In this document: piece after piece, positions 38,060 to 41,760 of the stretch
Numbering within the stretch: the stretch's first letter is position 1
Layout: each line of letters starts with the position of its first letter
Origin: Pelagibacterales bacterium SAG-MED01
GTDB lineage: Bacteria; Pseudomonadota; Alphaproteobacteria; Pelagibacterales; Pelagibacteraceae
Length of the DNA: 64,000 bases
Direction: 5' to 3'
Assembly: GCA_014654455.1 (NCBI GenBank)
Contig: JACWCY010000004.1
Location: 1 to 64,000 of the forward strand
The notes under the pieces: model-generated
What the model saw: the letters and a program-made list of their open reading frames with translations, nothing else
The model's database searches: none
What the model was told of the DNA's origin: nothing
Made by a program: the position numbers and the translations under genes

Positions 38060-39202
38060 ATGAACTTTGGAACGTCAAGGGCTTCGGCCATTGAAAAGCT
38101 AAATAAGTTTGTTGACCAAAATTTATTTGAATATTCCAGATTAAGAAACTTTGATTATGGTCCTAACAATAGATCAAATATTTCATGCCTTTCACCATAC
38201 ATTACCCATGGGATAATTTCTGAGTTAGAAGTGATTAAAAAATCGTTAAATAAATTTTCATTTTCAAAGAATGAAAAATTCATTCAAGAAGTTCTATGGA
38301 GAACATATTGGAAAGGCTGGTTAGAATTAAGACCTAATGTTTGGACTGATTATTTAAATGAATTAAAAAAAGTTCGTGAAGAATTTAAAGACAACCAAAA
38401 CTATAAAAATGCAATTGAGAGTAATACAAACATCGAGTGTTTTAATGAATGGGTAAAAGAATTAAAAGAAACTAATTATTTACACAATCATGCAAGAATG
38501 TGGTTTGCAAGTATTTGGATTTTTACTTTGGATTTACCTTGGCAACTTGGTGCAGAGTTTTTTATGAGGCATCTTTATGATGGAGATGCTGCATCCAATA
38601 CCTTAGGGTGGAGATGGGTCGCTGGAATTCAAACACAAGGTAAAAATTATCTAGCTAGTGAATGGAACATTAAAAAATTTACCAACAACAGGTTTAACAA
38701 TATCAAACTTAATGAAAATGCCCCTCCAATAACAAATAATAAAACTTATGCTGCATCGAAATTGGTGTTTAACAATCCACAAAATCTTGAAGAAAAAAAT
38801 CTTCTTGTTTTTGAAAATAATTTGTCTTTTGAAATAAGTGATTTTAAAGATCAAAAATTTAAAAAAGTTTTTTTAATTTCTAACAAAAATGAAAACCGAA
38901 CTATAGAACTCAGTGAAAAGTTAGTAAAATTTAAGTCTCAATTAATTGAAGATCAAAAAAAGAGATTAGAAGAAAAATCAATCAATACTGAAATTATAGA
39001 TTTAAGTGAGATTCAGAATATTAATGAAACTTATTATGGTTTATATCCTACAGTTGGTGAAAACCTAGATTTTATAAATACAAATAATTTAAAAATAGAA
39101 TTTCTGTATAGAAAATTAGACCAATTTTCTTGGCAATATTGTAATAAAGGTTTTTTTAATTTTAAAAACTATATTCCAAAAATAATTACAACTTTTAATT
39201 AA
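38060..39202 (+). CDS. Photolyase/cryptochrome-like protein with N-terminal FAD-binding domain and C-terminal alpha/beta-like region
   Basis: N-terminal half LSPYITHGIISELEVI..FIQEVLWRTYWKGW..HNHARMWFASIWIF..DLPWQLGAEFFMRHLYDGDAASNTLGWRWVAGIQTQGKNYL matches photolyase FAD domain; C-terminal ~135 aa unlike usual order. Confidence 0.85.
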   Translation: MNFGTSRASAIEKLNKFVDQNLFEYSRLRNFDYGPNNRSNISCLSPYITHGIISELEVIKKSLNKFSFSKNEKFIQEVLWRTYWKGWLELRPNVWTDYLNELKKVREEFKDNQNYKNAIESNTNIECFNEWVKELKETNYLHNHARMWFASIWIFTLDLPWQLGAEFFMRHLYDGDAASNTLGWRWVAGIQTQGKNYLASEWNIKKFTNNRFNNIKLNENAPPITNNKTYAASKLVFNNPQNLEEKNLLVFENNLSFEISDFKDQKFKKVFLISNKNENRTIELSEKLVKFKSQLIEDQKKRLEEKSINTEIIDLSEIQNINETYYGLYPTVGENLDFINTNNLKIEFLYRKLDQFSWQYCNKGFFNFKNYIPKIITTFN

Positions 39203-40141: not shown

Positions 40142-40270
40142 TTAACTTAGCTTAGAACACTTCTTAGAACAATATTTTACTCTATCCCAATTAAGTTTCC
40201 ATTTCTTTCGCCAAAAAAAAGGTCTTTTGCAAACTGGACAGATTTTTGATGGCAGATGTTCTTTTTTCAC
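40142..40270 (-). CDS. DUF2256-like zinc-ribbon microprotein (42 aa), GTG start overlapping photolyase stop; not in ORF track
   Basis: Translation (M)KKEHLPSKICPVCKRPFFWRKKWKLNWDRVKYCSKKCSKLS: CPVCKRPFxWRKKW...VKYCSKKC two-Cys-pair motif; TAGTG overlap with the photolyase gene. Confidence 0.88.
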   Translation of the reverse strand: MKKEHLPSKICPVCKRPFFWRKKWKLNWDRVKYCSKKCSKLS

Positions 40271-41760
40271 TAAAAAGTATTTTGTTTTATAAATTTATCT
40301 GCCTCAGATAAAATCAATTTTTTTCTATCCGTTTTCATTTTATCAAAAATTCTTACCATCATTGATAATCTAGGGTTAGTTAAAAAAAATTTTCTGTTTC
40401 GATCTATAAATCTCCAATAAAGACCATCCATTGTATTGCACCACTCTCCTTTTTTAAAATCCATCATTTTCATAAAATAAGCAGACCCACAGATATAAGG
40501 TTTGGTTGCAAATATTCCGCCATCACTGAATAGTCCCATACCATAAACATTTGGTACCATTACCCAGTCAGAAGAGTCTACAAACATTTCCATAAACCAT
40601 TTGTAAACTATAATTGGTTTAATCTCACAAAGGTTCATGATGTTAGATAAAATCATTAGTCTTTCAATATGGTGAGACCAGCCGTGGTTTAATGCATTCT
40701 TGATTGCATAATCTAATGGTGGCAAACCTGTCGTTCCATCATACCAAGACTTTTTCATTTTTCTATTTTGTTTAAAAAAATTTTTGGTTTCCATTTCCTC
40801 TGAATAACTTTGATAAATACCTCGCATAAACTCTCTCCAACCAATTATCTGACGGATATAACCTTCCAAGGAATTCATTCTTATTTTATTTTTTTTATGA
40901 AAATCTAAAACTTTTTGAATAATAAACTCAGGAGTTATTAAACCTAAATTGATATAGGGGCTTAAAGCACTATGAAATAAAATGTTGTCTTTTTGATTTA
41001 CTGCGTCTTCATAATCACCAAACAAATTTGATTTTTCTTTTATAAAAAAATTTAGTAATTTAACCACGCCATCAAATTCTGTTGCCAACCAAAAATTATC
41101 CGTACTACCTGGATGATCTTTAAATAATTTTTCTACGATAGGCTTTAATTTTTTTGTATGATTAGTTTCATTAATTTTAGGAAATTTTGGTATTGAAATA
41201 TCTTTTGGTAATTTATTTCTATTGTCCTCATCAAAGCTCCACTTTCCTCCGATTGGATTTCCATCAGCACCCATCAATATTCCTGATTTTTTTCGAACCT
41301 CTTTGTAAAACGTTGCCATAAAAGGTTTTTTTGATTTTCCTAAGTAATTTTTGAATTCACTTCTTGAGTTTAAAAACATAGGAGTTTGAACAACATTCCA
41401 ATTAATTTTTTCTTTTTTTAAGAATTGAGAAATTTTTTTTTCAAAAGACTTATCTTCAATTTCAAAACTAGAAATTTCTTTAATTTTTTTTGAATTAATA
41501 ATCTTTTTTAATTTTTTAAGGTAATCATCTTTAAATTCTTTATCTTCAATTTTTGTATACTCTAATTTAAATTTATTCTTTTTGAGTTTGTCTGCATAAG
41601 ATCGCATAGAAGACAAGAATAATAGTATTTTCTGTTTATGATGTTTTTCATAAGTACATAAACCATTGTCTTCTGCCATAAAGAATATATGGTCTTTTTT
41701 GAAGCGGTCGAGGTATTTTGATGGAAATAATTGATTACCAAGTATAAAAAATAACTTCAT
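40270..41760 (-). CDS. Cryptochrome/photolyase, FeS-BCP (prokaryotic 6-4 photolyase, PhrB-like) family, apparently lacking most Fe-S ligands
   Basis: FFILGNQLFP...; EGYIRQIIGWREFMRGIY, HGWSHHIERLMILSNIMNL, DWVMVPNVYGMGLFSDGGIFATKPYICGSAYFMKMM, GLYWRFIDRNR. Confidence 0.92.
   Translation of the reverse strand: MKLFFILGNQLFPSKYLDRFKKDHIFFMAEDNGLCTYEKHHKQKILLFLSSMRSYADKLKKNKFKLEYTKIEDKEFKDDYLKKLKKIINSKKIKEISSFEIEDKSFEKKISQFLKKEKINWNVVQTPMFLNSRSEFKNYLGKSKKPFMATFYKEVRKKSGILMGADGNPIGGKWSFDEDNRNKLPKDISIPKFPKINETNHTKKLKPIVEKLFKDHPGSTDNFWLATEFDGVVKLLNFFIKEKSNLFGDYEDAVNQKDNILFHSALSPYINLGLITPEFIIQKVLDFHKKNKIRMNSLEGYIRQIIGWREFMRGIYQSYSEEMETKNFFKQNRKMKKSWYDGTTGLPPLDYAIKNALNHGWSHHIERLMILSNIMNLCEIKPIIVYKWFMEMFVDSSDWVMVPNVYGMGLFSDGGIFATKPYICGSAYFMKMMDFKKGEWCNTMDGLYWRFIDRNRKFFLTNPRLSMMVRIFDKMKTDRKKLILSEADKFIKQNTF

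Follow-up and report, generated by a model that had tools for sequence, protein, structure and literature searches.

The gene at 38060..39202 on the + strand of the window (64,000 nucleotides, positions 1 to 64,000 of contig JACWCY010000004.1 from the SAR11 bacterium Pelagibacterales bacterium SAG-MED01) very probably encodes a CPD photolyase of the NewPHL/SPL class, with the FAD domain first and a C-terminal domain that is a relocated relative of the photolyase antenna domain. The original prediction had offered a circular permutation or a novel C-terminal domain; a permutation at the level of domains is the better of these options, and the architecture itself is not new, proteins of this kind having been described from 2020 onwards under the names NewPHL and short photolyase (Emmerich et al. 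2020 and Xu et al. 2021, cited after PMC9426592, PMC13274461 and PMC9649867). PMC13274461 calls these proteins NewPHLs or SPLs and describes their domain topology as inverted, and PMC9426592 credits Emmerich et al. 2020 with the demonstration that the D. shibae and M. mesophilicum homologues repair CPD in ssDNA, the repair reported for the family being light-dependent. The novelty that was suggested for the architecture is thus lost, since according to PMC9426592 and PMC13274461 it has already been characterised biochemically.

The ORF, identified by its reading frame, a Pfam match and its relatives, has an ATG start 6 bases past the stop of the preceding gene and encodes 380 aa plus stop. A phmmer comparison with PDB chains pairs residues 8-189 with residues 210-395 in class I CPD photolyases such as 1owl, and the protein therefore begins at the start of the canonical FAD domain, which lies within its first 10 residues. 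From the phmmer alignment to 1owl and the invariant columns, the FAD or catalytic domain takes up residues 1 to about 215 (38060..38704, +), and it is closed by a family signature, GKNYLASEWNIKKFTNNRF, at residues 194-212 (38639..38695, +). The only family recognised by Pfam is FAD_binding_7 (residues 74-198; 38279..38653, +; E 4.6e-17), which covers no more than profile positions 1 to 127 of 203 and leaves about 180 residues past residue 198 with no match, and neither Pfam nor phmmer found an antenna (DNA_photolyase) domain upstream of the FAD domain. About 165 residues follow the FAD part, and residues 246-380 (38795..39199, +) form an alpha/beta domain of Z-like, antenna-like character with five predicted strands, as delimited by AlphaFold2, Foldseek and profile alignments. 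An FAD domain followed by a domain of about 135 residues had been predicted from the letters, and its order, size and signature all proved correct by ORF, Pfam and phmmer; the reversed domain order is confirmed as real, far beyond chance.

As the antenna domain comes first in canonical photolyases, it could be argued that a class I photolyase gene, truncated or wrongly assembled, has been joined to an unrelated ORF, the probability of which is practically nil given that architecture, length and neighbourhood are equal in independent single-cell genomes and that the same architecture recurs in unrelated alphaproteobacteria; misassembly is refuted by this conservation in independent genomes. The full 380 aa are conserved at 75-95% identity in 80 Pelagibacterales loci, the nearest relatives all being Pelagibacterales and mostly single-cell genomes, and a homologue at 59% identity is found in another genus of the same family. 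The phylogenetic spread of the FAD-first architecture extends to many other alphaproteobacteria, where homologues match end to end at about 32-42% identity, including full-length homologues at 33-36% in Asticcacaulis, Novosphingobium, Niveispirillum, Ruegeria and Peteryoungia. Amongst loci with at least 4 kb of sequence on both sides, the gene has an aldo-keto reductase gene and argG upstream and a DPRP photolyase gene downstream in 68 of 68 SAR11 cases, and from this fixed neighbourhood and the conservation across loci the 380-aa protein is the product of an established gene and no accident of assembly.

When viral contigs were scanned with the family alignment, 54 pattern matches were obtained but no relative, and the phage records gave canonical FAD-domain matches only. 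Plasmid-borne alphaproteobacterial NewPHL genes (L081, L082, L084, L085 and L086) recur near DUF3429 genes or genes for AarF/ABC1/UbiB kinases.

Residue equivalences were taken from the phmmer alignment in the numbering of the A. nidulans photolyase, and invariance was counted in 28 sequences. Y25, S42, L44, S45, R81, N143, D174, D176 and N180, all invariant, align to Y228, S241, L243, S244, R287, N349, D380, D382 and N386, the flavin contacts. Equally invariant are E77, W80, M147 and W186, aligned to E283, W286, M353 and W392, the CPD contacts, and W184 and W161, aligned to W390 and W367, which are the proximal and middle tryptophans of the electron-transfer chain; where the distal Trp of the classical triad would align, the 28 sequences show no conserved Trp (F109 in the SAR11 protein). 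Many of these residues fall in three short stretches of the + strand, the first of which holds E77, W80 and R81 (38288..38302). The second, N143 to M147 (38486..38500), contains an invariant Asn/Met pair of the CPD type, in place of the His of eukaryotic (6-4) photolyases, and the third, DGDAASNTLGWRW (residues 174-186; 38579..38617), is the flavin-binding loop with N180, which faces flavin N5, and W184.

It would seem likely from these residues that the N-terminal domain binds FAD, that fully reduced FADH- would be regenerated in the light through the conserved Trp chain, and that a CPD would be flipped into a pocket made up of E77, W80, N143, M147 and W186, where FADH- may give it an electron and so split the dimer. 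Both the CPD-repair activity of the SAR11 protein and its substrate are thus predictions that we infer from its sequence. C-terminal extensions are frequent in cryptochromes, and the protein might on that account be a light sensor with the FAD domain as detector and the C-terminal domain as output, a reading we regard as very improbable. Every CPD-lesion residue is invariant, the likeness of the C-terminal domain is to the photolyase N-domain and not to a signalling output, the neighbouring gene encodes another photolyase, and family members are reported, in the literature cited above, as repair enzymes. Cryptochrome-type sensing was rejected on residue conservation. Against the DASH cryptochrome profile the protein reaches 56.8 bits, the cut-off being 317. 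Function had been considered not evident from the sequence; the invariance of the CPD-lesion residues makes a repair enzyme much more likely than a sensor.

Modelled alone with AlphaFold2, the C-terminal domain gives five strands alternating with helices (pLDDT 79.8, pTM 0.75), whereas the full-length model, made from a shallow SAR11-only alignment, is poor outside this domain (pLDDT 55) and its Foldseek list is mostly noise. The structural check that had been proposed thus returned a folded alpha/beta domain, not a disordered tail, and photolyases are its best Foldseek matches. Searched against 350,542 PDB chains, the modelled domain has as its top match a Caulobacter (6-4) photolyase (prob 0.99, TM 0.50 by query), and the top 50 also include 9hnk, 8a1h, 7ykn, 8ijy, 5lfa and the mouse cryptochrome 4ct0; the match would fall in the photolyase N-domain, that being the alpha/beta domain of those proteins. 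No Pfam family matches the C-terminal domain, and no plausible match was found amongst PDB sequences, where the lone profile hit was a Lon protease at E 0.031. Within the family R351, D354, W358 and GFF at 364-366 are conserved, and they belong to a nearly invariant C-terminal motif, R-x2-D-x3-W-x5-GFF-x-FK-x2-IP, at residues 351-373 (39110..39178, +).

A profile of 28 C-terminal domains scores 28.8 in hhalign against 30 canonical antenna domains, compared with a maximum of 24.3 in 200 column shuffles and about 14.5 for reversed profiles, whilst the control profiles score 19.9 (Usp), 19.3 (DPRP-N) and 15.6 (SDR). It is possible, but unlikely, that the domain is an unrelated Rossmann-like domain that was acquired independently and is not the relocated antenna domain. 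Identity to canonical antenna domains is about 9% and the hhalign probability only about 30%, and the Foldseek E-values are modest (best 0.015, none at or below 0.001) with universal-stress and eIF2B folds close behind and nearly equal; however, photolyases are both the top and the most repeated Foldseek matches, and the antenna profiles outscore Usp, DPRP-N and SDR. By model and profiles together, the C-terminal domain is closer to the photolyase antenna domain than to anything else tried.

The relationship to the antenna domain can be followed through a sister group of FAD-first proteins with Fe-S-type cysteines, which come from Deinococcus plasmids and one alphaproteobacterium. In the phylogenetic tree the NewPHL-like clade (99/99) stands apart from canonical and DPRP photolyases, and the Fe-S inverted group adjoins it at 91/53. 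Fe-S cysteines are present after the FAD domain in L088, L114, L228, L229 and L230. The FAD-first and antenna-like parts are separate ORFs in L228:1848-3139 (Deinococcus sp. QL22) and L114:980-1560 (minus strand; the alphaproteobacterium), with a stop/start overlap of 4 bases that suggests coupled translation of two chains, and they are joined in one ORF in L088, L229 and L230, three other Deinococcus plasmids. In the fused Deinococcus forms the C-terminal domain begins VVWVHGDRLSPTNEAL, and that of L088 gives a hit to Pfam DNA_photolyase with E 7e-4, which falls short of the curated cut-off.

C-terminal domains of the Deinococcus/Phr5-like type align with canonical antenna domains at an hhalign score of 56.8 (P 7e-9), and the NewPHL domains align with the Deinococcus/Phr5-like ones at 30.8 (shuffle maximum 21.7) along 101 columns that begin with the first strand. 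In this alignment LLVFENNLSFE, the first strand and loop of the SAR11 domain (residues 248-258; 38801..38833, +), lines up with WVHGDRLSP in the Deinococcus relatives, a stretch that itself aligns with canonical WFRxDLRL, and the loose resemblance of the tail to WFRxDLRLxDN noted in the original prediction is therefore borne out. Because the Deinococcus domains bridge NewPHL and canonical antenna domains, the arrangement is best read as a permutation of whole domains, in which the FAD domain is followed by a relocated antenna domain that is much decayed in NewPHL. The C-terminal domain of the SAR11 protein would then be a degenerate relative of the antenna domain, and we infer that it helps to close the FAD site and does not carry an antenna pigment.

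A canonical photolyase of about 475 aa is also found in most SAR11 genomes of the genus. A PF00875 (antenna-domain) photolyase is, however, absent from six SAR11 genomes, the home genome and five relatives (G000, G432, G471, G537, G551 and G585), which are 94-99% complete and all carry the inverted photolyase; the home genome, about 95% complete, is 1,167,589 bases long, and one of the five relatives is a single contig. Three control genomes of the same genus, searched alongside, do have a PF00875 photolyase. The only FAD_binding_7 proteins found in the home genome are the inverted photolyase and the adjoining DPRP/PhrB-type photolyase, and the five relatives have two such proteins each. The DPRP photolyase (40270-41760, -, 496 aa), about 1 kb downstream of the NewPHL gene, has cysteines only at C35, C378, C424 and C441, and as this spacing is unlike the CxxC type seen where bacterial (6-4) photolyases hold an Fe-S cluster, it appears to belong to the PromaPL type, which is Fe-S-free.

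In SAR11 genomes without a class I enzyme, the home genome and at least five relatives, the inverted photolyase, as the sole CPD candidate, might repair dsDNA or be the main defence of ssDNA, which we think rather doubtful; if true, this would set the SAR11 protein apart from the NewPHLs known to date, whose repair is restricted to ssDNA. Should NewPHLs act strictly on ssDNA, these SAR11 would be left with no obvious dsDNA CPD photolyase. With the antenna-domain photolyase missing, it becomes ecologically relevant whether NewPHLs act on ssDNA only or on dsDNA as well, and this absence is the one modestly interesting point of a finding that is itself ordinary.

With the SAR11 data, a known class of inverted photolyases is placed in a bacterial group that ranks among the most abundant in sunlit ocean waters, and the profile alignments add sequence support for the Z-domain being the relocated antenna domain. 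Membership of the NewPHL/SPL class is assigned to the SAR11 protein on its architecture, its residues and its position in an alphaproteobacterial clade, which was built with Ruegeria, Novosphingobium and Niveispirillum relatives in place of the Dinoroseobacter shibae and Methylobacterium mesophilicum proteins; the reference NewPHLs A8LJA9, M7YZC8, Q2N8F4 and B6IPR5 were set beside it by description only. The likeness to the class includes an FAD domain first and a short C-terminal domain second with no N-terminal antenna, CPD-type residues, an alphaproteobacterial distribution and a lack of Fe-S cysteines, the only cysteines of the SAR11 protein being C43, C127 and C361. The SAR11 members differ in forming a branch of their own, with about 32-42% identity to members from other alphaproteobacteria, and in that some of their genomes have no accompanying antenna-domain photolyase.

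Class I CPD photolyases (1owl, 1dnp) share the FAD domain, the lesion residues and the proximal and middle Trp, but have an N-terminal antenna domain and a longer C-terminus to the FAD domain. Reversed-order proteins are also known from marine Synechococcus and Cyanobium as Phr4/5 and Phr6 (PMC9426592), and the split and fused forms in Deinococcus and an alphaproteobacterium extend this picocyanobacterial Phr4/Phr5 versus Phr6 situation to other phyla. Phr4/Phr5, Phr6 and the Deinococcus relatives resemble the SAR11 protein in having the FAD domain ahead of an antenna-type domain; they have Fe-S cysteines and an antenna domain that is better conserved and in some cases has its own ORF, whereas the SAR11 protein has neither feature. 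The Prochlorococcus protein Phr7, reported to lack the four Fe-S cysteines, has an N-terminal FAD domain and a C-terminal Z-domain, termed an atypical short photolyase domain (PMC9426592), and by this description it is like the SAR11 protein in domain order and likewise comes from a bacterium of the sunlit ocean with a streamlined genome.
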